Source: Nanobdellati archaeon
Lineage (GTDB): Archaea; EX4484-52; GLR71
Direction: 5' to 3'
Length of the DNA stretch: 28,526 nt
Assembly: GCA_019429005.1 (NCBI GenBank)
Contig: JAHYJR010000009.1
Coordinates: 1 to 28,526 of the forward strand
Translations under genes and position numbers: made by a program
In this document: piece by piece, positions 1,532 through 20,921 of the stretch
Layout of the letters: each line of letters starts with the position of its first letter
Numbering within the stretch: the first letter of the stretch is position 1
Notes under the pieces: generated by a model
What the model was told of the DNA's origin: nothing
The model's input: only the letters and a program-made list of their open reading frames with translations
The model's database searches: none

Positions 1532-2872
1532 TTAAAATAATTTATTTTCTCTTCTTGAAAAACAGGAACTTCCACCGACAAGACACTTTGGTTTACAAAG
1601 ACTGTTCACACACCGTGCCATCATAGATGCACCAAGAGCAAGACCATCTTCTACAGCATAGACCTCATAACCGTCAAGCATAGCATCAACAATATCAAGC
1701 TTATTGCCTTCTATTGCAGCACGACCCGTAAGACCCAAAATATAAGAATCTATGTATTTTTTAGATTCAGTTACAAGCACATCGATTAAAATTGCAGAGG
1801 TATTATCTATCGTATCATAGATAGCTTTCTGACCATAAGTTTCAAATAAATCACGACCAATATCTGATATTTTTCTAAGATCTGAACCATTTATACCCAC
1901 ATCAATACCTATAATTTCAATATCTTGTTCTTTTGCCTTATCAAGATATACAGGCACCATACCACACACATCTTTATTGACAGAACCTACAGAAATATAA
2001 TCCATAAGTTTAGATGAGAAATCCAAAGAACCCTCATTAAGATAATCTGCATCGCCAGACTCTAATTCACCAAGATCCATAACAGATGGATAATCATCAG
2101 TTGCAATACTGCTGACTAAAGCATCAAATATTCCACCATAAAGACCGACAAAACAGACTTTTGTCATATTATCATCAATAACTTTTCCGGCAAGAGTTGT
2201 GCCACCATCTATGAATATACCAGAATCAATATACGAATCTGAACCGAATACGCACTGTTGAAACTGTTTATTAGATTTATTAACTTCAAAAGATATTGCA
2301 TCTTTCAAGCCAGCAACCACAAGGTCGCTTTCCATACTGTTTGCAGTCACACTGTCAGGCATAACATTTGCGACATAACCGTCAAATGGCAATTTGTCAT
2401 AAACAGAATATTTCTTAAGAGATTCGGGTATATCTTGTATCATCTTTTTAGAAGGTATACCTGTATTTAAACAACCATTTGCAAGAGATATTATTATATT
2501 GTCAAGGTCTTTTGAATTATCCATACCTGCAACAATACCTGTAGACCTTACTGCAAAATCAAGATCTTTTGTGTTTAGGCGTAAATTGAAAAAAGTCTTT
2601 CGGATTGCATCTGAAATATAATCTGACAATTCAGATGTTCCTAGATTTTTGCCTAAGACAGTCTTGAAATCGTTACCATCATCAACATCACGTGTCATAG
2701 ACACACCTTTTTCTAAAAGATATGTTTTTTTGCTTGGAAACTCTGTTGCTGTAAGAATCGTTTTTACGGTTGTGTTTCCGACTTCAACAGAAAGGCATGT
2801 GAAATACTTATTTGGATTCTTCCGGAATTCTTGTACATCAAGAGTTTCGTGAACAATAGAGTGTAAAACCAT
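1532..2872 (-). CDS. Methanogenesis marker protein 14-like (ASKHA fold)
   Basis: A 446-residue protein that matches my memory of the methanogenesis marker 14 family: an N-terminal segment SVEVGNTTVKTILTAT, then KTYLLEKGVSMTRDV, VRSTGIVAGM, and a C-terminal GLTGRAAIEGNK followed by AVEDGLALGASMMARC. The GNTT and IDGGTT turns resemble the phosphate loops of the ASKHA (sugar kinase/Hsp70/actin) superfamily. The biochemical role is not known to me. The family was defined by its co-occurrence with methanogenesis genes. The C-terminus carries several Cys residues (positions about 422, 429, 433 and 439). It is divergent from mtrAH, with 177 bp between the two starts, which suggests shared or related regulation. 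The family call is from motif recall only. Confidence 0.75.
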   Translation of the reverse strand: MVLHSIVHETLDVQEFRKNPNKYFTCLSVEVGNTTVKTILTATEFPSKKTYLLEKGVSMTRDVDDGNDFKTVLGKNLGTSELSDYISDAIRKTFFNLRLNTKDLDFAVRSTGIVAGMDNSKDLDNIIISLANGCLNTGIPSKKMIQDIPESLKKYSVYDKLPFDGYVANVMPDSVTANSMESDLVVAGLKDAISFEVNKSNKQFQQCVFGSDSYIDSGIFIDGGTTLAGKVIDDNMTKVCFVGLYGGIFDALVSSIATDDYPSVMDLGELESGDADYLNEGSLDFSSKLMDYISVGSVNKDVCGMVPVYLDKAKEQDIEIIGIDVGINGSDLRKISDIGRDLFETYGQKAIYDTIDNTSAILIDVLVTESKKYIDSYILGLTGRAAIEGNKLDIVDAMLDGYEVYAVEDGLALGASMMARCVNSLCKPKCLVGGSSCFSRRENKLF

Positions 2873-3020
2873 CTTTAATCAACAAATTATACATAATAAC
2901 AAAATACTAACAACAATAATAGAAACTATAATAGTATAGAATCGAATATTACATATTATAACAATACTAAATATATCACCAAGCAATAATTTAAAACTTA
3001 TGAGTGATAAAATCTATAAG

Positions 3021-3030
3021 TATATAAAAT
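3021..3030 (+). promoter_or_regulatory. TATA box of the mtrAH operon
   Basis: TATATAAAAT lies about 25 nt upstream of the ATG at 3050, and no purine-rich ribosome binding site precedes that ATG. This spacing places the expected transcription start at or next to the ATG, so the mtrAH mRNA is probably leaderless. This is inferred from archaeal promoter spacing. Confidence 0.5.
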
Positions 3031-3049
3031 TTAAAAAATATTTTTTAGT

Positions 3050-4684
3050 ATGAGTGATTCTTCAAAAAAGAATATCTGGCCTTTAATAAAACCAGATATA
3101 ACTATACTAAATGAAGACGGATATGTTGCAGTTGCAACTTTAGATAACAAAAAACTTGATTTCTCTGATGTAAAAAATGTTTTGATACAAGGCCCTTTAA
3201 TAACTGAAAATGTAGGTATTGAAAAGCTTGTCATTAATACAGTAACAAATCCCTACATTAGATATCTTGTACTTGTTGATAGCGAAGTTATGGGTCATAA
3301 ACCAGCACACACAATAAATGCACTTGTCGAGAATGGAATAGATGAAGATACAAAAAGGATTATTGGTGCAGAAGGTGCTATACCGAATATCCCAAACATT
3401 AATGATGATATAATTGCGCATTTTAGAGAACAAATTGAAATCGTAAACCTTGTAAAAGATTATAACCCAGATCTACAAGTGCTTTCAGATGATATATATT
3501 TAGAAACTATAAAAGAACAAATTGCAAATTTACCTAAAAAAGATTCTTTTACAACTTATGAACATAAAATTGACTTACCACTTCTTGGAACACCGATGAA
3601 AGAAATGAAACCAAGAATATCTGATAATATAGCTAACAGCATGATATACCCTACTGCATCTCATCCGTTTAATGAACTTAGAGGAGGTACAGACATATCA
3701 TCTTGGAATCGTAAAATATCTAATATAGGCGGAACATTACTTGGAGGATACCCTGGACAGTTTCCAATCTTTATGGGTGGAAGCATATTCTATAAAGGAC
3801 ATGATATCCTAAAAGATTCAAAAAAAGGTATTTTTGATGAAAAAAGAGCAGAAGAATTAATATTATGCCAAGATGCATTATCTTCAAAATATAACATTCC
3901 ATGCTTTATTGACCTTGTTGCAGACACTAAAGAAGCTGCTGAAAAATACATATTATTTTTTACTGAAATAAGTGATTCACCGTTTGCTATTGATTCAGGA
4001 GTCTCTGATGTTAGAATACATGCTGCACAATTTGCAGAGGAAATTGGACTTGGAAACAGATTAATCTATAACTCACTTAACATGGGTATTGATGAGAAAG
4101 AAGCGTCATACTTACAAAATAATCCGCCACAAAATGCAATTGTCCTCGCATATTCAAGTGAATATGGATTATCAAAAAAAGAGGATGTATTATATTCAAG
4201 AGGTCTCGTAACTCATGACGAGATTCTTAAAATGAATCGTAAAGAACTTACAAAACTTGCAAGGACAAGTACATTATCATTTGCAGAAGCAATAGGAATC
4301 CCAAATATACTTATTGATACAGCAGCAGTTAGCGGAATGGATGGCTTGATTGCACTTGAAAAATTCAATGATTATGGTTATCCTTTAGGTTGTGGTGCAC
4401 ATAACGTGATTCAAGATCCAAAAAATAGCTATGCTAGTGTTAGTATAAATGCAATTTCAAGAATAAAGGGTGCGGATTTTCTTTTATATGGACCAATAGA
4501 TAGCTCAAAAGAAAACTTTTCTTCAATGAACCAAATAGAAAAAGTTATGGGCGATTATAATACTAAATCATTTAATATAATTCCAGCAACAAAACATCCT
4601 TTTTGGGGCGAGGAGGATAAAGATGAATCTTGTAGACCCGGAATATGTACAAGACCATGTCGTAAGACAAATATTGTGCCATAG
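3050..4684 (+). CDS. mtrAH: Fused methyl-H4MPT corrinoid methyltransferase, MtrA-MtrH
   Basis: A 544-residue fusion of two subunits that are separate in the methanogen Mtr complex. Residues about 10-165 are MtrA, the corrinoid carrier: ENVGIEKLVINTVTNPYIRY, then SEVMGHKP, whose His83 sits where MtrA coordinates cobalt, then GAEGAIPNIPN and FREQIEIV. Residues about 225-525 are MtrH, which moves the methyl group from methyl-tetrahydromethanopterin to the corrinoid: GGYPGQFPIFMGGSIFY, KKGIFDEKRAE, LGCGAHNV and LLYGPIDSSKENF. MtrA's C-terminal membrane anchor is absent, so the protein should be cytosolic. Residues about 170-220 form a linker. The last 25 residues hold a cluster C528-X4-C533-X3-C537 not typical of MtrH; it may bind metal. 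The ATG appears leaderless. It heads a probable operon with the thymidylate-synthase-like gene. The methyl acceptor is unknown; methionine synthesis or CODH/ACS are reasonable guesses. Confidence 0.92.
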   Translation: MSDSSKKNIWPLIKPDITILNEDGYVAVATLDNKKLDFSDVKNVLIQGPLITENVGIEKLVINTVTNPYIRYLVLVDSEVMGHKPAHTINALVENGIDEDTKRIIGAEGAIPNIPNINDDIIAHFREQIEIVNLVKDYNPDLQVLSDDIYLETIKEQIANLPKKDSFTTYEHKIDLPLLGTPMKEMKPRISDNIANSMIYPTASHPFNELRGGTDISSWNRKISNIGGTLLGGYPGQFPIFMGGSIFYKGHDILKDSKKGIFDEKRAEELILCQDALSSKYNIPCFIDLVADTKEAAEKYILFFTEISDSPFAIDSGVSDVRIHAAQFAEEIGLGNRLIYNSLNMGIDEKEASYLQNNPPQNAIVLAYSSEYGLSKKEDVLYSRGLVTHDEILKMNRKELTKLARTSTLSFAEAIGIPNILIDTAAVSGMDGLIALEKFNDYGYPLGCGAHNVIQDPKNSYASVSINAISRIKGADFLLYGPIDSSKENFSSMNQIEKVMGDYNTKSFNIIPATKHPFWGEEDKDESCRPGICTRPCRKTNIVP

Positions 4685-4701
4685 TAAGATCTGTGATTAT
4701 T

Positions 4702-6057
4702 ATGAATAATATAATAAAAGATCCAAACATATTACGTGGAAAAACATTTCCAAATGTTTGGAGACAATATCTTGATGACATAAACCGGAATGGCCTTAGA
4801 AATTATACTGAAGAAAAAGGCATAATTAATGAAAATTTCTGTACGCTTGCTGTTATCACAGACGTAAATAGTGGTAAGATACTTCCAGATGAATACAATA
4901 CAATTTCTGAAGCTAATATGCCCGGATACCTTAAAGAATATGGAAGCATAACCTGCATGGATAATCTTGATTTTGAATATACATATGGTGAACTTGAATG
5001 TGATCATTTTGGATATAATCAGCTCGAAGATGCTATCAGTAAAATCCAAAATAATCCAGAAGGAACATATGCTACAATGAGATGGGATCCTCCAGTCGCA
5101 TGGGATACAAAAAGTAGACCTTGTCTTGTATCTTCAATATGGAAAGAATTTAATGACGCAATACATACAATACAGATTGTAAGAGTGCATGATATAAAAG
5201 GAGGGATACCTGCAAACAATTACGGAGTTACAAACGCTTGGGGACAAAATGTATCTAACGCACTTAACATACCACTTGGTGATGTAGCATATCTTTCAAT
5301 AGTTCCGGATTTTAGAGATACAAATCTTAAAGAGGTTGAAACTATAACAAGATCATATGAAAACTGTGATCGTAACCTTATACCTAAAAACAGATCACAT
5401 TTACCAGGACCTGTACTTGTGAAAGCAAATGATATTAATACAGCATATCAAAAAGCAAAAGATGCATTTAAAAGACATTCAAAAGAAAATGTTAGTCAAA
5501 AGGAATTGATTCTTGGTGTATTTATAAGAGATGTAGATACAACAAACACAGACTATTATAATCTAGAGATTGTAGAAAAAACATTAAATGGTGAAAATGT
5601 TGTTGGGAATCGTCTCTGTAACTTTGAAGGTTATCCTGAAAGGACTGCAGAATATCTAAGAGGACATATCCGTGAGATTAAAGCTATGGATGATGATAAA
5701 TTTGACATATTTAAACAAGCACTCCCTAGAAAAATTGACCAGATTGAACAAAATGTAACTGGAAAATATGGTCTGATTGAAATGCCAAATCTTGTAAGAG
5801 TTGGTATGACACCATATGATCCTGTAAAAGATAAAAAAGGTACAGATACAAACCTTCTTTGGGCACAACCGCTCATACGTGGCGGTAGAATGAACATGGT
5901 CGGCGTTTATTTAGATTCTTCTACAGACGATTTCTCTGATGATTTCTCAACCATTGCAGGCATACAAAATCATATAACTGAGCGTGTCAATAATGAAACA
6001 GGACAGAAACTTGAAAATGGAAGTATATTTATTCAATATGCACCAATACATGATTAA
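4702..6057 (+). CDS. Enlarged thymidylate synthase-like protein
   Basis: A 451-residue protein starting at ATG 4702. GTGAT at 4693-4697 serves as ribosome binding site, so the longer GTG start at 4693 is less likely. Residues about 120-210 resemble archaeal thymidylate synthase: SRPCLVSS with the catalytic-type Cys141, VRVHDIKGGIPANNYG matching the RS-D...P-N substrate-binding segment, and DVAYLSIVPDF where the usual S-HIY motif has lost its His and Tyr. Archaeal ThyA proteins are about half this length. The C-terminal half (about 360-451; GGRMNMVGVYLDS and later NGSIFIQYAPIHD) looks like a second, degenerate synthase-like unit without the Cys. The N-terminal 120 residues are unassigned. It starts 17 nt after mtrAH, so it is probably co-transcribed. 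It may methylate or bind dUMP or another pyrimidine with methylene-H4MPT, or it may have changed function. Confidence 0.7.
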   Translation: MNNIIKDPNILRGKTFPNVWRQYLDDINRNGLRNYTEEKGIINENFCTLAVITDVNSGKILPDEYNTISEANMPGYLKEYGSITCMDNLDFEYTYGELECDHFGYNQLEDAISKIQNNPEGTYATMRWDPPVAWDTKSRPCLVSSIWKEFNDAIHTIQIVRVHDIKGGIPANNYGVTNAWGQNVSNALNIPLGDVAYLSIVPDFRDTNLKEVETITRSYENCDRNLIPKNRSHLPGPVLVKANDINTAYQKAKDAFKRHSKENVSQKELILGVFIRDVDTTNTDYYNLEIVEKTLNGENVVGNRLCNFEGYPERTAEYLRGHIREIKAMDDDKFDIFKQALPRKIDQIEQNVTGKYGLIEMPNLVRVGMTPYDPVKDKKGTDTNLLWAQPLIRGGRMNMVGVYLDSSTDDFSDDFSTIAGIQNHITERVNNETGQKLENGSIFIQYAPIHD

Positions 6058-6084
6058 CTGTGTTAAAACCATCAGATGATAAAC

Positions 6085-6955
6085 ATGAAACCTGTAGATT
6101 TACATATACACACAAATATGTCTGATGGAAATATATCTTCTGAAGAAATAATAAAAATTGTTTCAGGTAAACTTTCAGCTATAGCTTTTACAAACCATGA
6201 AAGCATAAAAGCATATGAAAATGTTACTGTTGAACTTGGAAAAAAATATAATGTTTAAATTATAACAGGAACTGAAATAAATGTCAATCATAACGGTATA
6301 AATTGTGAGATACTAGGATATCTGTTTGATTCTAAAGATGAAAAACTAAATTGTTTTTTAGATAAACTCAATAAAACAAAATTAGGTTCAATTAAAAAAT
6401 TAATTGATATAATTAATTCTGAAGATATTTTGAATAAACCGATAGATATTGAATCTTATTTTTCTAAATCAAATCATATAAACAAACATCATGTCGCAAA
6501 AGGTATGATTGAAAACGGTTATAATGACACAAAAGATACAATATTCAAAAACTATTTTACTATAGATAAAATAAAACAAACAGAATGGAAATTTCCACGA
6601 CTTAAAACAGCATCAAAGATTATTAGGGATGCAGGTGGTGCGGTTGGAATTGCACACCCTGAAAGGATAGCTATTCAAGATAAACTCAAATTCATAAAAG
6701 ACATAATGCCGCACATCACAATAATTGAAGCGATATATAACTATCGTGAATTTAGGAACTCTAAATAAAATAAACAATTCAGACAGGATTCTGAAAAAAA
6801 AAATAACCTTTGCAAAAAATGAAGGGCTTTTAATCTGCGGTGGATCTGATTTTCATTATCTTAACAAAAATGAAGAAAATGTTCTTGGTAAATTTTCCAT
6901 ACCCTATGAGTATCTTGAAAAGATAAAAGAAGCTAATTTGAAACATAATAGATAA
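6085..6955 (+). pseudogene. PHP-domain phosphoesterase, broken by a stop and a frameshift
   Basis: The N-terminus KPVDLHIHTNMSDGNISSEE and later FTNHES, GIAHPERIA and GGSDFH are the metal-binding motifs of PHP phosphoesterases of the YciV/TrpH (3',5'-nucleoside bisphosphate phosphatase) type. The frame from ATG 6085 (an alternative ATG is at 6076) meets TAA at 6256-6258. It continues unbroken in the same frame with ITGTEINV, exactly the sequence expected next in the family. At about 6755-6770 the reading frame must advance by one base to continue from AIYNYREFRNS into ITFAKNEGLLICGGSDFH and end at 6955. It lies 27 nt after the thymidylate-synthase-like gene, presumably in the same operon. Two lesions suggest a decayed gene; an assembly error or programmed recoding cannot be excluded. 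Confidence 0.85.
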
Positions 6956-7983: not shown

Positions 7984-8646
7984 TTAAAGATATTTGTTTT
8001 TCGTTAATATTGGATTTAAATGACTTAAAGTCTTATTAAAAAGTGCACCAATAGAATCCTCTTTTGTATGCCTGAAACCAATCTTAACAGTATCAAGCAC
8101 AACAACATTATCGTAATATTCTGAAAGTTTCAAGTAATTATTTCTTGCAATAATCTGCTTTTGAATATTTGACTCATCACGATTCATTGCTTCATTTCGA
8201 CTCGATAATCTCTCTGATGCAAGATAAGGTGGGATATCATATATAAGTATCAGACTTGGATCTGGCATAAAACTGTTAATCTCTTTAATATCTTGATAAG
8301 ATAAATCTCCAGATGTCTGTGATGCGAAAGTTGATGTTAAACCCCTGTTTGATATTACGTTTGTGCCTTTTGCTAAATTGGGCTCAATAACTGTCGATAA
8401 AAGATAAGCCCTATCAGCTGCAAAAAGATGTGCTTTTGTTCGATCATCAAATGCAACATCAGACGATTTTAGATTTGTTGCTTTCAAAAGAGCACCTATC
8501 GGATTCGCTGTAGGCTCCTGAACAAAAATACAATCTAAAGCATTTTTATCAACATAATGTTTAAGCAAATCTACTTGTGTATCTTTTCCAGAACCGCTTA
8601 TACCATCAAGAATTATGTAATTACCGCGTTCATTGTTTGGAACCAT
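7984..8646 (-). CDS. tmk: Thymidylate kinase (dTMP kinase)
   Basis: A 220-residue kinase that phosphorylates dTMP to dTDP in the cytosol. The N-terminus YIILDGISGSGKDTQVDLL contains the P-loop, in place of the usual EGxDGxGKST. Then come VQEPTANPIG, the FAADRAYLL helix and NRGLTSTFASQTS, which stands for the usual DRY..S..AYQ. RNEAMNRDES is a candidate lid region. Length fits the family. The replacement of the canonical DRY by NRG makes it divergent, so a different nucleoside or nucleotide monophosphate kinase is possible. It lies across the repeat array from the ParB-like gene on the same strand. The thymidylate-synthase-like gene is 2 kb away, so thymidylate metabolism may be loosely clustered here. 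Confidence 0.78.
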   Translation of the reverse strand: MVPNNERGNYIILDGISGSGKDTQVDLLKHYVDKNALDCIFVQEPTANPIGALLKATNLKSSDVAFDDRTKAHLFAADRAYLLSTVIEPNLAKGTNVISNRGLTSTFASQTSGDLSYQDIKEINSFMPDPSLILIYDIPPYLASERLSSRNEAMNRDESNIQKQIIARNNYLKLSEYYDNVVVLDTVKIGFRHTKEDSIGALFNKTLSHLNPILTKNKYL

Positions 8647-12430: not shown

Positions 12431-12928
12431 TTAACTTATATCAGCAGAGTCTGAAATTGTTGCAGCAACACTACCTGCGATTGGATGTGGTATACCATCA
12501 GATGTATACTTTATTGTTAGACTACCGTCGTAACAAGCTCCAGCAGCACCTGGTGTATTTATAGCAGCAGCAAGAACTGTAACCGTACATGCAGTACCTT
12601 TAGGTATTGTAGTACCAGTACAACCAACGCCTACACTTGTAGTTATGTTTGTTGTTGCAGAACCTATTTGTGTCAAAGTTATGTCATTACCCATAGCGTT
12701 TGTTATTTTAATCATAACCTCACCATCTGTATCGACTGCAAATCCTTCAACTAACATGTTTGGTGACTTGAAATTTGTAGTATCTGTACATGAACCTCCA
12801 AAAAGACCCATCTGAAAAAGAACACCAGCGACAACAACAATTGCAAGAAGTGCCCAACCGTAAGTCATAAGATACTCTGTTGCGGATTGTGCTTTCTTTA
12901 TTCCTTTATTATTAAATATATTCAACAT
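12431..12928 (-). CDS. Archaeal pilin with class III signal peptide
   Basis: A 165-residue secreted pilin. GGAGG is located 8 nt before ATG 12928, inside the longer frame that opens at 12943, so 12928 is chosen. The signal MLNIFNNKGIKKAQSATEYL has the basic stretch and the A|QSATE processing site of prepilin peptidases (Gln+1, Glu+5), followed by a hydrophobic core (LMTYGWALLAIVVVAGVLF). The mature domain is rich in Thr, Gly and Ala and has Cys residues (about 47, 104, 113 and 132) that could form disulfides; NITTS and NFK are Asn-rich surface segments. The MTYGWA core is typical of pilins from DPANN-like archaea. It is the likely major subunit of the pilus made by the three genes upstream. 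Confidence 0.9.
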   Translation of the reverse strand: MLNIFNNKGIKKAQSATEYLMTYGWALLAIVVVAGVLFQMGLFGGSCTDTTNFKSPNMLVEGFAVDTDGEVMIKITNAMGNDITLTQIGSATTNITTSVGVGCTGTTIPKGTACTVTVLAAAINTPGAAGACYDGSLTIKYTSDGIPHPIAGSVAATISDSADIS

Positions 12929-13042
12929 TTTAATTTCCTCCATTTATCTTTAAAGTTTGATAAACTTAGTATAAACATAATATGTTTTTTTAGTATATAT
13001 ATAATTTTCGGTTTAATGTGTTATTAATTAAGGTCCATAAGA

Positions 13043-14167
13043 CTATAACCCACCCATCAAAACAAAAAGGATATGTTTTGCAATAAAGAAAATCACGATA
13101 GATACCACTACAAATATAGGGCTGTAATTAATACCACCTTTGATGTTTCCATTCTTGATAAGAGAAATCACAAGACCTGCAAAAAAGTTTGTTATAAATA
13201 TAGCAGTAATTGCAAAACCATCGAAAAATGCAGGGTCTACAGATGGTGCTGATGGTGATATTGACATAAGTGAAGAACCCATATTCTTTGAACCAAAATC
13301 ACCCATCCCACCCCACATATCAATTGTACTTGAAATAAGATAGCTTGAAATTGCAAACATAATAGGAGATGCGATAACGCCGGCAATTATAATAAATATA
13401 AGATACATCTGGATACTTGAATTTATCTCTTTCTTCAACACCTTTGCATTCTCAATATCATTTGCACTTTCTTCAAGAAGTGTTGCAATCTGACCACCGT
13501 TTTTCATACCTTCAACAAGAAGATTTATTACACGTTCAAGATGTTCAGAATAAATGTTATCTGTAAGTTTTTTGAACGCTTTTTCAGGTTTTATACCACT
13601 ATAAATCATAAATGCAGTTTTCTTTATTTCAACAGATAATGCACCAAATTCTTTTCTTGCAGAAAAGATTAACGCTTTATCAATAGTATAACCAGATTTT
13701 ATGTTTGATGAGGCCAATATAAGCACATCAGATAAAATCTTTTCAACATCTTTTGTCCGATTATCAGCCATCACAGTATAAATAATATAAGGTACAAAAA
13801 AGGACACTACAATAAAAAACAATGAAATTGTTAAAAACAAATAGGTAGGCATAAGTAAAAACAAATTTGCAACAACAAGCAAAGCTAAAAATAAGAACAT
13901 GAAAAATCTACTAATAATTACAGCTTGATGATCTATTGGATGTTTTATACCAGCATAAATTGCTTCTTTTTCTAGTAAGGCACGATATTTTGCCGGATAT
14001 TTATGATATATAGCTTTAACATAATCTTTTTGTACATCTTGATACCCTTTAATATTTGAATTAGAACGTTTCCTTTTTTGAGATGTTGAGTGAGTTGAAG
14101 GTGTATTCTGTTCACTATATGATTCAGATTCCATAGACCCCTTATCAACGATATCATCATCAGACAT
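13043..14167 (-). CDS. TadC-like pilus platform protein (GspF family)
   Basis: A 374-residue inner-membrane platform protein of the GspF/TadC/ArlJ family. It organises pilus assembly above the ATPase. ATG 14167 is chosen because GGTG lies 9 nt upstream, whereas the ATG at 14179 is only 2 nt from it. The N-terminal about 60 residues are hydrophilic and rich in Ser, Asp and Lys. Next come two membrane spans (FLFLALLVVANLFLLM, then LFFIVVSFFVPYIIYTV), the T2SF cytoplasmic helices (LSDVLILASSNIKSGYTIDK, VEGMKNGGQIATLLEESAND) and further spans toward the C-terminus. It starts 12 nt after the TadB-like gene ends and is followed by the pilin. Confidence 0.85.
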   Translation of the reverse strand: MSDDDIVDKGSMESESYSEQNTPSTHSTSQKRKRSNSNIKGYQDVQKDYVKAIYHKYPAKYRALLEKEAIYAGIKHPIDHQAVIISRFFMFLFLALLVVANLFLLMPTYLFLTISLFFIVVSFFVPYIIYTVMADNRTKDVEKILSDVLILASSNIKSGYTIDKALIFSARKEFGALSVEIKKTAFMIYSGIKPEKAFKKLTDNIYSEHLERVINLLVEGMKNGGQIATLLEESANDIENAKVLKKEINSSIQMYLIFIIIAGVIASPIMFAISSYLISSTIDMWGGMGDFGSKNMGSSLMSISPSAPSVDPAFFDGFAITAIFITNFFAGLVISLIKNGNIKGGINYSPIFVVVSIVIFFIAKHILFVLMGGL

Positions 14168-14179
14168 AAAACATAACAC

Positions 14180-15034
14180 CTATAACCTTACAAGTGGTCT
14201 TTTTGTCTTGACCACATTTATGAAAAATATCTGAAACCCTACTAAAAACACTAATATTAAATAAAATACCTTATTGCCAAAACCAGTACCTACAAAAGTT
14301 GAAAGAAGCATGAATAACGTTATACCTAAGGATGGCATAATAACACCAATCATCATATACATCATAGTAAAAGGATTAAGTTCCTGACCATATTTCTTTA
14401 TTGAAATCATCTGTTCTTTTATGATATTATTAACACTAGTCTTAAGAGGTTTTTCAATATCAGTACCAGTTCTCAAAGCATTAAGTATCTGCCAAAAAGA
14501 TTTCCTATAAAGATAAGAGGGGCTTGTGATAACACTTTCCTCAATCGCTTCAATTTCAGATTTCCCACCATTTATCTGTTTCAATATATGTTTCATTTCA
14601 AGAGATATTTCACCATAATTTTCTGAGATTGATACAAGCGCATTATAAAGAGGGATACCGGAGCGAATATTAATTAGAAGATGACGAAGTGCATAAGGAA
14701 GTTCCCTATCAAGCTCACGACCTCTTTTTTTTGCGATGATTTTAGGTTGATATAATTCAGAATAAAGACTAAACATAAACAAGATAGGTACTATAACAAT
14801 ACCTAGCATGTAGATGCTTGAAATCCTCGTAAAAAGACCTAATAACAAAAAAGATACAAGAACTAAAAGCGATAAATTTGCAGATTTAAAAATTGATAGA
14901 GCTATATGTTCATTAAGACTTTTTTTTATTCTTGCCTGAGAAAGATCAATTTCAATATTAATAAAATACGGTGCTATATTTTCACCAAAATGCCTAAAAA
15001 TTTTAGGAATTGGTTTATTTTTAGATATTACCAT
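14180..15034 (-). CDS. TadB-like pilus platform protein (GspF family)
   Basis: A 284-residue GspF-family membrane protein and probable partner of the TadC-like protein. ATG 15034 is chosen because GGTG is 10 nt upstream; the in-frame ATG at 15043 is only 1-2 nt from it. It has two early membrane spans (LSLLVLVSFLLLGLF, LGIVIVPILFMFSLY), the T2SF motif DRELPYALRHLLINIRSGIP and then GTDIEKPLKTSVNNI, and two C-terminal spans ending in a basic tail. It shares the operon with the ATPase upstream (62 nt) and TadC-like downstream. Archaeal pili often use one ArlJ-like protein; here the function is split into two half-length genes as in Tad systems. Confidence 0.85.
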   Translation of the reverse strand: MVISKNKPIPKIFRHFGENIAPYFINIEIDLSQARIKKSLNEHIALSIFKSANLSLLVLVSFLLLGLFTRISSIYMLGIVIVPILFMFSLYSELYQPKIIAKKRGRELDRELPYALRHLLINIRSGIPLYNALVSISENYGEISLEMKHILKQINGGKSEIEAIEESVITSPSYLYRKSFWQILNALRTGTDIEKPLKTSVNNIIKEQMISIKKYGQELNPFTMMYMMIGVIMPSLGITLFMLLSTFVGTGFGNKVFYLILVFLVGFQIFFINVVKTKRPLVRL

Positions 15035-15096
15035 AACAACCATACACCAAAAACATTAAAAATCACACAAAGACTTTCTAAACAATAAATTAACTA

Positions 15097-17010
15097 TCAA
15101 TTTATACCAATAATCTTTTCAGGAGACCCATTAGATTTTGCAAGTTTAACCACGGCTCCCTCATCACGATAATATTCTGCAATGATTTTTCCAACATTGT
15201 TTATATCTTTAATACCCTTATCTAACATCCATTGAAGTACAATCTGTTTTTCAACTAAATTCTCTTCAATTTCAGTCTCATTCATACCAGTATAAAGATT
15301 TATCTCATTTATCAACCGTATAAGACGCCCTTTTCGAATAAATGTATCAGTATGCACGTCCCACTTATATACTACGTTTACCTCATTTGAGACATCTACA
15401 GGAACTATTTCTGCAACTTCAAGAGTTCTTCTAACACCCATACGTCTCTGACGATATTGAACAACCATAAGGTGTAATGCACTGATTAAAGATGCGGGAA
15501 GATTCATAGGTGGATTTATAAGACGTTGATATGCCTGTTCAGCACGATCAGAATGAAATGTAGCATAAGCAGAGTGACCAGTCCGAATTGCTTCAAACAT
15601 AACTTCGGCTTCTTTTCTACGCCGAATCTCTCCGATAATAATCCTGTCAGGTCGCATCCTCAACGAATTTACAAGGAGATCAAGCATAGATACCTTACCT
15701 TGACCTTCTGCATTTGCTTCTCTTGCAGATAATGGCACCCAATGTAAAAATTTAGGTAATTGTATTTCACGAGTATCTTCAATTGAGATGATTCTCTGAT
15801 TTGGTGGTATAAACGGTATAAGCGCATTTAAAAGAGAAGTCTTACCACTTGCAGTACCACCTACAACAAGTATATTAAGCTCATATTGTAATGCAAGCCA
15901 AAGAAGTGCTGCAACTTCCTTTGAAAGTGTGTTTATCTTAGGATCTATAAGATGCACAATAGTCCAAGGATCTCTAGAAAAACGACGAATTGTTAAAGTG
16001 TTACCTTGAGAAGATATTGGAGATATCGTTGCATTAACACGATCTCCTGTTGTAAGGTATGCATCCATAAGAGGATGAAGATTTGTTATTTGCCTTCCAA
16101 CTTTACGCCCAATAGCACCCGCATAATTATATATCATCTCTTCGCTTTTGAAAAGAATATTTGTCTTTACCCAACCAAACCTTTTATGATAGACCCAAAC
16201 TGGCTCAGAACTACTATTTACAACAATCTCTTCAAGATTATCATCATTTAAAAGAAGTTCAATATCACCAAGACCTAACATCTCATGAATCAGATTACCA
16301 CTGATTAAATTCATCTCTAGTTTTGATAGCCCTGGAAGATATTTATCAATAAGTTCATAAGACCGTTCCATAAAACGTTTCTTTATAGTTATTATCGCTT
16401 GAGGATCCACAAATTCTTTAGTTGTTATATCAACTGAAGAGATTATCTCTTCACGGATTTTATCAACAATTGCTCTTGTTGCTGGCTGAATAAGTGCACG
16501 TTTTATATCATAGATTGGTACATATTCTTCCAAAGTTGTATAAATAGTAACTCTAGCTGGAACATTATCTGCTATAAGATCATATTCCATCTTGATTGTC
16601 CTATCAGCACCGATTTGTTTAGGATGTGTGTCAACAGATTTATTTGGTTTAGATATGGTTTTATGGAGAGGTTTATGATCTGATTTAGATATGGTTTTAT
16701 GGAGAGGTTTATGATCTGATTTAGATATGGTTTTATGGAGAGGTTTATGATCTGATTTAGATATGGTTTTATGGAGAGGTTTATGATCTGATTTAGATAT
16801 GGTTTTATGGAGAGGTTTAGATTTAGTAGTAATCTTTTTTTTAGATGAACTCTTTGAATTTGATTTATGTGTCTGTTTAGGTATAATGTCATGTACTAAT
16901 TTAGAAATGGCCTTCTTTAAAACCTTAGAAGTTGAACCTGAAACAGACTTAGGATGTGATTTATTTGATGTTTTAGTTGATTTATCCACATTTACCGATT
17001 TTTTTACCAT
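15097..17010 (-). CDS. Pilus assembly ATPase (TadA/VirB11-like) with repetitive tail
   Basis: A 637-residue secretion ATPase that powers pilin assembly. The catalytic part starts near residue 140. GDIELLLNDDNLEEIVVN and RVNATISPIS belong to the N-terminal domain, VVGGTASGKTSLLNAL is Walker A, ISIEDTREIQLP the Asp box, PDRIIIGEIRRRKEAEVMFE Walker B, and GHSAYATFHSD the His box. The first 135 residues are an unusual Lys/Ser/His-rich extension that contains five tandem 12-residue repeats of KPLHKTISKSDH (residues 65-121). This tail is very basic and probably disordered; it may bind nucleic acid, polyphosphate or a membrane surface. It is the first gene of the operon ATPase, TadB-like, TadC-like, pilin. 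Confidence 0.93.
   Translation of the reverse strand: MVKKSVNVDKSTKTSNKSHPKSVSGSTSKVLKKAISKLVHDIIPKQTHKSNSKSSSKKKITTKSKPLHKTISKSDHKPLHKTISKSDHKPLHKTISKSDHKPLHKTISKSDHKPLHKTISKPNKSVDTHPKQIGADRTIKMEYDLIADNVPARVTIYTTLEEYVPIYDIKRALIQPATRAIVDKIREEIISSVDITTKEFVDPQAIITIKKRFMERSYELIDKYLPGLSKLEMNLISGNLIHEMLGLGDIELLLNDDNLEEIVVNSSSEPVWVYHKRFGWVKTNILFKSEEMIYNYAGAIGRKVGRQITNLHPLMDAYLTTGDRVNATISPISSQGNTLTIRRFSRDPWTIVHLIDPKINTLSKEVAALLWLALQYELNILVVGGTASGKTSLLNALIPFIPPNQRIISIEDTREIQLPKFLHWVPLSAREANAEGQGKVSMLDLLVNSLRMRPDRIIIGEIRRRKEAEVMFEAIRTGHSAYATFHSDRAEQAYQRLINPPMNLPASLISALHLMVVQYRQRRMGVRRTLEVAEIVPVDVSNEVNVVYKWDVHTDTFIRKGRLIRLINEINLYTGMNETEIEENLVEKQIVLQWMLDKGIKDINNVGKIIAEYYRDEGAVVKLAKSNGSPEKIIGIN
16651..16819. 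repeat. 36-bp coding tandem repeat in the ATPase gene
   Basis: Four complete 36-bp units start at 16651, 16687, 16723 and 16759. A fifth at 16795 matches for 25 bp before diverging. The complete units are identical, so the DNA repeat is young or kept uniform. Each encodes 12 residues in frame (KPLHKTISKSDH), so changes in copy number would not shift the frame. Confidence 0.95.
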
Positions 17011-18994: not shown

Positions 18995-20425
18995 TCAACC
19001 TTTTATAACACCCATAGGCTTAAGTTTCGCAACCAATTTGCCAATGCCTGCATTGTTGCTGACATTTACAACCTCATCAATGTCTTTATACACTTGAGGT
19101 GCTTCTTCAACTACGCCTTTCCAAGATGCAGTCTTTAGTAAGATACCTTGAGATTCAATTTGTTTTTTTATCTGATCGCCTGTAAATTTGTTTATAGCTG
19201 CAGACCTAGACATCACACGACCTGCACCGTGTGCTGTTGAACCGAAAGATGCTTCTTCAGCACTGTCAGTTCCAACAAGAAGGTATGAAGATGTGCCCAT
19301 AGAACCTGGGATTATCACAGGTTGGCCAGTCTTTCTATAAATTGATGAAATTTCTTCACGACTAGGACCAAAACTTCTTGTAGCACCTTTTCTATGCACA
19401 CAAACTTTTTTTGTTTTACCATCAATTTGATGTTTTTCCATTTTTGCAATGTTATGTGTAACATCATACACAAGATCCATCTCAAGGTCTTCAGGACTCA
19501 TCTTCAGTATACGTGAAAAGCTCTCTCTAACCCAATGAGTTATCATCTGCCGATTTGCCCATGCATAATTTGCTGCAGCAGACATTGAATTAAAATAACG
19601 TTCGCCTAACTCAGACTTTATTGGTGCATATACAAGTTGACGATCTGGAAGTTTGCTCAGGTCAGAACCTAATGTGCGCTCCATCTCACGTATGTAATCA
19701 GAACAAACTTGATGACCTAAACCCCTAGAACCGCAATGTATCATAACACAAATCTGGCCCTTAAATATACCAAAAGCTTCAGCAGCCTTCTTATCATAGA
19801 TCTCTTCAACATATTGCACTTCTAAAAAATGATTTCCGGAACCTAAACTTCCAAGCTGAGGCAGACCACGTTTCATTGCATTATCAGAGATGTTAAGATC
19901 CGTTACATCTATTTTACCGTTATCTTCATGACGTTCAAGGTCCTTTTTAAAACCATAATTATTATCAACTGCCCATTTCGCACCATCATGAAGAACATCC
20001 ATAAGCGTATTTTTATTAACCCGTAATGAACCTGCACGACCTACACCTGATGGAACCTCAGTATACATCAGATTAAGAAGTTCTGGAAGTGCTTTCTTAA
20101 TTTTATCTTTCTCTAAGCTTGTCCTTACAAGACGAACACCGCAATTGATATCATAACCAATACCACCTGGAGAAATCACACCTTCATCAAGGTCAAATGC
20201 AGCAACTCCACCTATAGGGAAACCATAACCTTCATGAGCATCAGGCATAATCATTGCTTGTTTCTGAATCCCGGGTAGTTGTGCGACATTCATTATCTGA
20301 TTCAGACTTTTATCCAGCTTGATTTTATCCATAAGAATATCAGATGCATATATTATTACAGGAACCTGCATAGCACCTTCTTTTTCAATTTTCCAGGAAT
20401 AATCATTAAGTCTTGTAAGTTTCAT
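18995..20425 (-). CDS. rtcB: RtcB RNA ligase
   Basis: A 476-residue GTP-dependent 3'-phosphate RNA ligase that joins tRNA exons and repairs RNA. GGIGYDINCGVRL carries the metal-binding Asp and Cys. CVMIHCGSRGLGHQ, YDVTHNIAKME and VHRKGATRSFGP hold the active-site His residues, including the one that is guanylylated in the family. GTSSYLLVGT and FGSTAHGAGRVMSR complete the C-terminal core. There is no intein. ATG 20425 (MKLTRLNDYSWKIEK) is chosen because it matches the family's N-terminus; in-frame ATGs also occur at 20440 and 20434. The archease gene ends 76 nt upstream on the same strand, so the two probably form an operon. Confidence 0.97.
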   Translation of the reverse strand: MKLTRLNDYSWKIEKEGAMQVPVIIYASDILMDKIKLDKSLNQIMNVAQLPGIQKQAMIMPDAHEGYGFPIGGVAAFDLDEGVISPGGIGYDINCGVRLVRTSLEKDKIKKALPELLNLMYTEVPSGVGRAGSLRVNKNTLMDVLHDGAKWAVDNNYGFKKDLERHEDNGKIDVTDLNISDNAMKRGLPQLGSLGSGNHFLEVQYVEEIYDKKAAEAFGIFKGQICVMIHCGSRGLGHQVCSDYIREMERTLGSDLSKLPDRQLVYAPIKSELGERYFNSMSAAANYAWANRQMITHWVRESFSRILKMSPEDLEMDLVYDVTHNIAKMEKHQIDGKTKKVCVHRKGATRSFGPSREEISSIYRKTGQPVIIPGSMGTSSYLLVGTDSAEEASFGSTAHGAGRVMSRSAAINKFTGDQIKKQIESQGILLKTASWKGVVEEAPQVYKDIDEVVNVSNNAGIGKLVAKLKPMGVIKG

Positions 20426-20501
20426 AATTATCATTTCCATTTAAACTTTAAAAAATATAGCATTATAAGATTTTATTTGTTTTTATTAATACCATAACTT
20501 A

Positions 20502-20921
20502 TTACACATCACAGATAACATGTGCTACCCACACACCATCTATCTTTTTAATTGACATTTCATTATAAGTAACAGCTTTAACATCTGGCTTGATCTCATA
20601 TTTACTTAAATCAGTATCACCAGAAACTTTAGCTTTTAGAGTATAATTATCACCCGAGTTCTCAATCTTGGCTGAAACCGAATGAGGAACAAAACCTTCT
20701 GAATCAAATAATACTAGAAATTCCTCTAAAAAATCATAAAGAAGAGATTCTAAACTTTCAGAAGACACAGAAATATACTTATCTACAACAGATTTAATTT
20801 TTTCAGTATCAGTCATGATATTGAACATAGCAAGAACTGCATTTGAAAAAGTCTCAGAATAAGTTGAACCATATGCTTCAAAACGAACATCTGCAGTGTG
20901 TGGAATAAATTTGAAACGCAT
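20502..20921 (-). CDS. Archease (RtcB cofactor)
   Basis: A 139-residue archease, which helps RtcB turn over by aiding guanylylation. The N-terminus RFKFIPHTADVRFEAYGSTY contains the HTADV metal-binding motif. The segment LESLLYDFLEEFLVLFDSEG and the C-terminal VKAVTYNEM...VICDV with its terminal Asp are characteristic, and the length is typical. It sits directly between rtcB and the tRNA-Ser gene (23 nt from the tRNA's 3' end), so it may be transcribed from the tRNA or ribosomal-protein promoter. Confidence 0.97.
   Translation of the reverse strand: MRFKFIPHTADVRFEAYGSTYSETFSNAVLAMFNIMTDTEKIKSVVDKYISVSSESLESLLYDFLEEFLVLFDSEGFVPHSVSAKIENSGDNYTLKAKVSGDTDLSKYEIKPDVKAVTYNEMSIKKIDGVWVAHVICDV

Follow-up and report, generated by a model that had tools for sequence, protein, structure and literature searches.

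The window analysed here, a stretch of 28,526 nucleotides, is contig C15 of the DPANN archaeal genome G000 (1.08 Mb, 93.6% complete) and carries an MtrA-MtrH fusion gene between a divergent gene for methanogenesis marker 14 (Mmp14) and a thymidylate-synthase-like (ThyA-like) gene:

1532-2872, minus strand: Mmp14 (methanogenesis marker 14, DUF2114), matched by TIGR03285 and PF09887, divergent from the fusion
2873-3049: divergent intergenic region of 177 bp, read from the sequence only
3050-4684, plus strand: MtrA-MtrH fusion of 544 aa, an intact open frame
3068-3463, plus strand: MtrA corrinoid domain (residues 7-138), profile match, with the His83 codon at 3296-3298
3464-3709, plus strand: hydrophilic inter-domain linker of about 80 residues by hydropathy, of low confidence in the structure model from about residue 170
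3710-4564, plus strand: MtrH methyl-pterin transferase domain (residues 221-504), profile match
4631-4660, plus strand: Cys-rich C-terminal tail of the fusion in the sequence (Cys528, Cys533 and Cys537)
4693-6057, plus strand: thymidylate-synthase-like protein of 454 aa (TIGR03283 match and alignment), starting with GTG at 4693 or ATG at 4702
7984-8646, minus strand: dTMP kinase (TIGR00041, 122 bits, above cut-off)

A tatataaa motif at 3021-3028, 22-29 nt upstream of the fusion ATG, resembles an archaeal TATA box. The ThyA-like gene starts 8 bp past the fusion stop, both frames being open over 3 kb, and the dTMP kinase gene, which belongs to the same pathway, lies ~1.9 kb from the ThyA-like gene, on the opposite strand and outside the operon. 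Elsewhere in the window, a gene for a PHP-domain phosphoesterase (6076-6955) is in pieces through stops and frame changes, reflecting either a pseudogene or local sequence errors. An archaeal type IV pilus-like cluster (12431-17010) encodes a pilin-like protein, two T2SSF membrane proteins and a T2SSE ATPase in whose N-terminal part a KSDHKPLHKTIS repeat occurs about five times, and at 18995-20921 an RtcB RNA ligase gene adjoins that for archease, a known functional pair.

Both halves of the fusion score far above the Pfam gathering cut-offs, in agreement with the earlier note, which had read this gene as an MtrA corrinoid domain and an MtrH domain in one polypeptide: residues 7-138 match MtrA (PF04208; E 1.5e-34, 119.6 bits, cut-off 25) and residues 221-504 match MtrH (PF02007; E 2.1e-55, 188.4 bits, cut-off 22.8). 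They fall under the equivalog cut-offs of the strict TIGR01111 for MtrA (116 vs 249 bits) and of TIGR01114 for MtrH (171.9 vs 271.4 bits). The MtrH part also matches the tetrahydrofolate-using MtgA, and the solved structures that it matches are those of MtrH (8z9u, E 2.9e-42; 9qtp) and MtgA (6sj8). The cobalt-ligating His83 named in that note corresponds in the alignment to His84, the cobalt ligand of MtrA. The GAIP motif (at 109) and the T-E-N loop, with Glu53 for Glu54 of MtrA, are retained as well, the cobalt-ligand His, the loop Glu and GAIP being the conserved points taken from the MtrA structure paper (PMC4915002). The absence of a membrane anchor was likewise borne out: no membrane helix was found in the fusion (highest 19-residue Kyte-Doolittle mean 1.36, in the MtrH part; linker 0.08), which by hydropathy lacks the C-terminal membrane helix of the MtrA of the Mtr complex. 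Profile searches of G000 recovered each family once, both in the fusion. The structure model shows the MtrA domain with fair confidence (pLDDT mostly 64-90), and a shallow alignment left the MtrH part poorly modelled; the arrangement of the domains is therefore not readable from such shallow models (pLDDT 51.3 for the whole MtrAH, 43.5 for the ThyA-like protein).

Among the matches listed for the whole-protein query (151 genomes), no other case spans the two domains in a single open frame; mtrA and mtrH are two adjacent genes in related genomes, and a scan of genome contigs for close relatives with the fusion alone as query returned nothing. An assembly join of two genes, which the earlier note had raised as an objection, is not indicated, since the 80-aa linker is read through in an open frame with neither frameshift nor stop. 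One separate pair (G102) is read through with a single in-frame stop.

The divergent Mmp14 gene scores above the equivalog cut-off of TIGR03285 (295.4 bits, cut-off 274; PF09887 E 2.9e-87). The family is confined to genomes with His-type MtrA, bar one weak match, and is often found near mtrH. Alignment identifies the motifs GNTTxK, GTTLAG and TGRA, which are ASKHA-ATPase-like, but a search of the Mmp14 profile against solved structures returned no ASKHA protein (e.g. of the RACo/RamA type) among its matches. Mmp14 is regarded here as a candidate corrinoid reactivase.

The gene 8 bp downstream, which had not been connected with the fusion in the earlier note, is the only ThyA/ThyX candidate of G000 in TIGR03283 and PF02511 searches, although its score against TIGR03283 (E 7.5e-24, 84.4 bits) is under the family cut-off of 174.55. 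By alignment, its N-terminal half has the catalytic Cys144 together with Arg164, Asp167 and Asn175, which we take to correspond to Cys146, Arg166, Asp169 and Asn177 of the E. coli enzyme. The same half, aligned to the E. coli sequence, has no counterparts of Arg126/127 (RR replaced by TY), His207 or Tyr209 (HxY lost), and one phosphate-contact Arg may be supplied by the C-terminal half. A purpose-built ThyA profile matches the N-terminal half with E 3e-24 and the C-terminal half only with E 0.02. The latter is possibly a degenerate second ThyA copy forming a tandem pseudo-dimer: it is similar in size to the N-terminal half, and in a low-confidence model its predicted secondary elements roughly repeat the order seen there, but by sequence it has no significant likeness to ThyA. 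When the ThyA-like model (pLDDT 43.5) was used for a fold search, thymidylate synthases came out on top, none with E < 0.001. In six other genomes (G016, G021, G036, G044, G050 and G052), ThyX-like frames of 430-574 aa contain two tandem ThyX matches, which suggests degenerate fused ThyX dimers.

HMM family searches in the 93.6% complete assembly of G000 found no McrA (PF02745), core MetE (PF01717), CODH/ACS subunit CdhD, ThyX (PF02511), MetF or Mer-type luciferase-like proteins. McrA is also absent from the whole order, ruling out a methanogenesis remnant feeding CoM, and methionine synthesis and CODH/ACS were rejected as acceptors in G000 with the failure to find MetE and CdhD. The self-contained soluble machine proposed in the earlier note thus survives in part: the domains are consistent with a putative MtrA-MtrH methyl-pterin:corrinoid transferase outside methanogenesis, whereas the named acceptors, homocysteine via a core MetE and CODH/ACS, do not hold for this genome. 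Its third option, an unspecified methyltransferase, is the sole one left, and the gene context points to the ThyA-like protein. With neither MetF nor Mer found, G000 has no detected enzyme that would form methyl-pterin.

MtrA is joined to thymidylate synthesis in several other genomes. In the window's own family (f1), the genomes lacking MtrH carry MtrA and ThyA as a single protein (PF04208 E 3e-41, PF00303 E 8e-15), and an MtrA-ThyA fusion is equally clear in Methanoperedens MnB_21 (L125; PF04208 E 1e-45, PF00303 E 1e-15). This last protein (451 aa; L125:2466-3821, VEPN01000049.1) has the cobalt His and the ThyA Cys intact and is the tidiest natural MtrA-ThyA fusion for biochemistry; a dTMP kinase gene lies ~5 kb from it. 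Proteins of family f7 and of Aenigmatarchaeota B34_G15 (L130) combine a clear MtrA with a ThyA-like part recognised by alignment, Woesearchaeota Zod_Metabat.157 (L135) has an MtrA-ThyA-DUF4346 protein with a weaker MtrA part, and in the ThyA fusions of family f2 and of G049 the MtrA part is very degenerate. The cobalt-ligand His is missing from the ThyA-fused MtrA of Woesearchaeota, f2 and G049, and the TEN-loop Glu from that of f1 and f7; MtrH was not detected in f2, in f7 or, apart from the window genome, in f1. Viral contigs yielded no MtrA-ThyA relative. The MtrA tree groups the fusions of f1, f7 and Methanoperedens in a single clade (94/93) separate from the window MtrA, whose branch is long and weakly placed, long-branched rows not being placeable; if this tree is right, MtrA joined ThyA more than once. 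At two loci (L046:6315-8705 and L135:7893-9419), DUF4346 and ThyA are fused to MtrA-like domains that lack the cobalt His, and DUF4346 recurs alongside MtrA, including in G034. MtrA is also fused to a 4Fe-4S ferredoxin domain in G046 (L048:8291-9190) and has a long C-terminal part in a Nitrospirae sequence (L127:769-2010).

Gene order and gene content connect the same functions. The mtrA-mtrH pair of family f3 is preceded in all three genomes, at 11-12 bp, by a dCMP-deaminase-like gene that encodes the HAE and PCxxC zinc motifs, and thyA is some 10 kb distant; in one f6 genome (G033) a dCTP deaminase gene is found ~1.3 kb upstream of mtrA; these deaminases are suppliers of dUMP or dUTP. Also in f6, mtrH and thyA are direct neighbours in G018, 19 bp apart, and lie about 100 bp from each other in G023. 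Across the window's order, ThyA is present in 17/19 genomes with MtrA/H and in 5/15 without; MtrA/H is associated positively with ThyA and negatively with ThyX (Fisher p values of 0.001 and 0.003 with kinship ignored), lineages with ThyX tending to lack both MtrA/H and ThyA, and the switch between ThyA and ThyX is visible within f6 (g12 vs g8/g10). A MetF-like protein occurs in f3 (G010) and in several f6 genomes, G010 combining MetF, MtrA, MtrH and ThyA in a genome in which MetE and CODH/ACS were not found. G039 is a contrast case, in which a ThyA-like gene is followed directly by a DHFR-like gene recognised by eye (L158:4253-5700), the expected partner of classical chemistry.

In other lineages the context differs. 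Thermoplasmatales SG8-52-3 has a compact mtrA-mtrH-core metE-DUF4346 run (L133:7995-10682), and its soluble MtrAH apparently feeds methionine synthesis, which backs the MetE idea of the earlier note in a different lineage; methionine synthesis is the likely role of MtrAH there and a possible one in f6, where core MetE is present. In four Methanobacteriales-like loci (L142, L143, L149 and L150, from G035, G057, G077 and G097), from methanogens in which the donor used by ThyA has been little studied, core metE, archaeal-type thyA and mch are neighbours, an arrangement that fits a corrinoid role and plain pterin chemistry alike.

A functional link of MtrAH to dTMP synthesis is well supported by these data and is, in our assessment, probable. 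A thymidylate role is favoured by the 8-bp spacing and by the status of the ThyA-like gene as sole ThyA/ThyX candidate in G000, by the MtrA-ThyA fusions, deaminase-mtrA-mtrH operons, mtrH-thyA pairs and alternation with ThyX elsewhere, and by the failure to find the known acceptors Mcr, CODH/ACS and MetE in G000. For the fusion itself we propose, as a working scheme with not quite an even chance of being right, a cytosolic methyl-pterin:corrinoid methyltransferase working in thymidylate synthesis in four steps. First, as family membership predicts, the MtrH barrel would take a methyl group from a methyl-pterin (methyl-H4MPT or methyl-H4folate) and put it on the Co(I) of a cobamide bound by MtrA through His83. 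The tethered methyl-Co(III) carrier would then, judging from gene context, dock on the ThyA-like protein encoded by the neighbouring gene. In the third step, Cys144 of that protein would add to C6 of dUMP and the C5 enolate would attack the methyl-cobalt, releasing dTMP and Co(I); the pterin would give no hydride, so that no dihydropterin reductase would be needed. Finally, Mmp14 may bring cobalt that has been oxidised to Co(II) by accident back to Co(I), or service the corrinoid in some other way. The thymidylate synthase cysteine renders C5 of dUMP nucleophilic, and matches of archaeal-type ThyA to the E. coli enzyme end near residue 211/264, the folate-closing C-terminal tail being missing, which leaves room for another donor. 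Precedent for the logic is given by the Thermoplasmatales mtrA-mtrH-metE run and by MesA, which is predicted to draw its methyl group from MtrA (PMC7857596).

Several observations weigh against this mechanism, namely the substrate contacts lost from the N-terminal half of the ThyA-like protein and its score under the TIGR03283 cut-off, the ThyA-fused MtrA parts without the cobalt His and those of f1/f7 without the TEN-loop Glu, and the failure to find MetF and Mer in G000, or MtrH in f2, f7 and, the window genome excepted, f1. The transfer of methyl straight from cobalt to dUMP is accordingly advanced as a tentative suggestion, appreciably short of probable. Since thyA also stands beside mch in Methanobacteriales, context can equally mean general pterin C1 use, and the best-surviving alternative, which we consider unlikely, builds on this: MtrAH would feed an unrecognised acceptor such as a methionine synthase, the ThyA-like protein would be conventional and use methylene-pterin, and the proximity of the genes would reflect a common pterin pool. 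The position of thyA between core metE and mch as part of a general C1-pterin cluster, core MetE as a possible acceptor in f6, the Thermoplasmatales run of soluble MtrAH with MetE and the missing cobalt ligand in some ThyA-fused MtrA parts all fit a common pool, which nevertheless leaves the MtrA-ThyA fusions, the dCMP deaminase-mtrA-mtrH operons and the alternation with ThyX unexplained and has to contend with a genome, G000, without any known acceptor searched for.

It is considerably less probable that the system runs in reverse or as a scavenger, the corrinoid taking methyl from a methyl compound, or MtrH stripping imported methyl-pterin to give free H4-pterin, on which ThyA would then draw in the form of methylene-pterin. 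MtrH relatives such as MtgA move methyl from corrinoid to folate, and methyl-pterin would have an outside origin in a genome where MetF and Mer were not found; no substrate-specific methyltransferase partner lies beside the fusion, however, and conversion of reverse-made methyl-pterin to methylene-pterin needs Mer or MetF, neither of which was found. Most improbable of all is decay or domain reuse, in which divergent pyrimidine enzymes would use MtrA-like domains for structure or regulation and the ThyA-like gene would have another substrate or be losing its function: the long branch of the window MtrA, the His lost from several ThyA-fused MtrA parts, the dUMP-contact residues lost from the window ThyA-like protein and the broken PHP gene next door are in keeping with it, but the window MtrA keeps His83, Glu53 and GAIP, MtrH is far above its cut-off, Mmp14 is retained and also exceeds its own, and neither frame is interrupted over 3 kb.

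Only two families of thymidylate synthase, ThyA and ThyX, are known, and both take a methylene group from a folate-type cofactor; methanogen ThyA has been shown only to exchange a proton, and its full reaction is not known to have been reconstituted. If extended from the window, the corrinoid scheme would amount to a third chemistry for making dTMP, with a corrinoid-dependent thymidylate synthase whose direct donor to dUMP on a ThyA fold is the methyl-cobalt of MtrA, charged by MtrH from methyl-pterin, and with the pterin left unoxidised, operating through an operon in DPANN archaea, through MtrA-ThyA fusions elsewhere and perhaps also in methanogens with a short, tail-less archaeal-type ThyA; we regard this broader proposal as conjectural and rather doubtful. 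If it is true, a B12-type cofactor would be a direct requirement of DNA synthesis in these archaea. What MtrAH does outside methanogenesis has been called unclear (PMC9635834) and the biochemistry of short archaeal ThyA is said to be barely explored (PMC9012536). The linkage of MtrA/MtrH, by fusion or operon, with ThyA and dUMP-forming deaminases offers a testable answer to both. In the literature searched, from which subscription papers were mostly absent, no report was found of MtrA-ThyA fusions or of a thymidylate role for MtrAH.

Soluble MtrA/MtrH pairs have been described in non-methanogens, Thorarchaeia among others, by Adam et al. 2022 (PMC9635834), so that what is new here is confined to the single polypeptide and its thymidylate context. 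Like those pairs, the window MtrAH has MtrA and MtrH outside methanogenesis and apparently without the membrane subunits, and Mmp14 beside mtrAH is common to the window and to an mtrH-mtrA-mtrH-mmp14 cluster in G105. The described pairs, however, are separate genes in Wood-Ljungdahl lineages, where they are thought to feed methyl into that pathway, whereas in the window a single polypeptide has a ThyA-like neighbour, and CODH/ACS was not found in the genome. With the membrane MtrA-H complex of methanogens the fusion shares the MtrA fold, the cobalt-ligand His and the methyl-pterin site of MtrH, but it has no membrane helix, a single MtrA and MtrH and no Mcr in its genome, and as such would pump no sodium. 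The ThyA-like protein retains the equivalents of the catalytic Cys, Arg166, Asp169 and Asn177 of archaeal-type ThyA (TIGR03283), a short enzyme without a folate-closing tail, from which it differs in its 454 aa, its score under the cut-off and the loss of the Arg126/127 and His207/Tyr209 equivalents. The flavin-dependent ThyX, an unrelated family absent from G000, is the alternative dTMP route of sister lineages. A parallel in logic is the core methionine synthase MesA (Price et al. 2021, PMC7857596), likewise a soluble acceptor enzyme for which the MtrA corrinoid is the predicted source of methyl; the acceptor of MesA is homocysteine on a MetE barrel, whereas the candidate in the window is dUMP on a ThyA fold.
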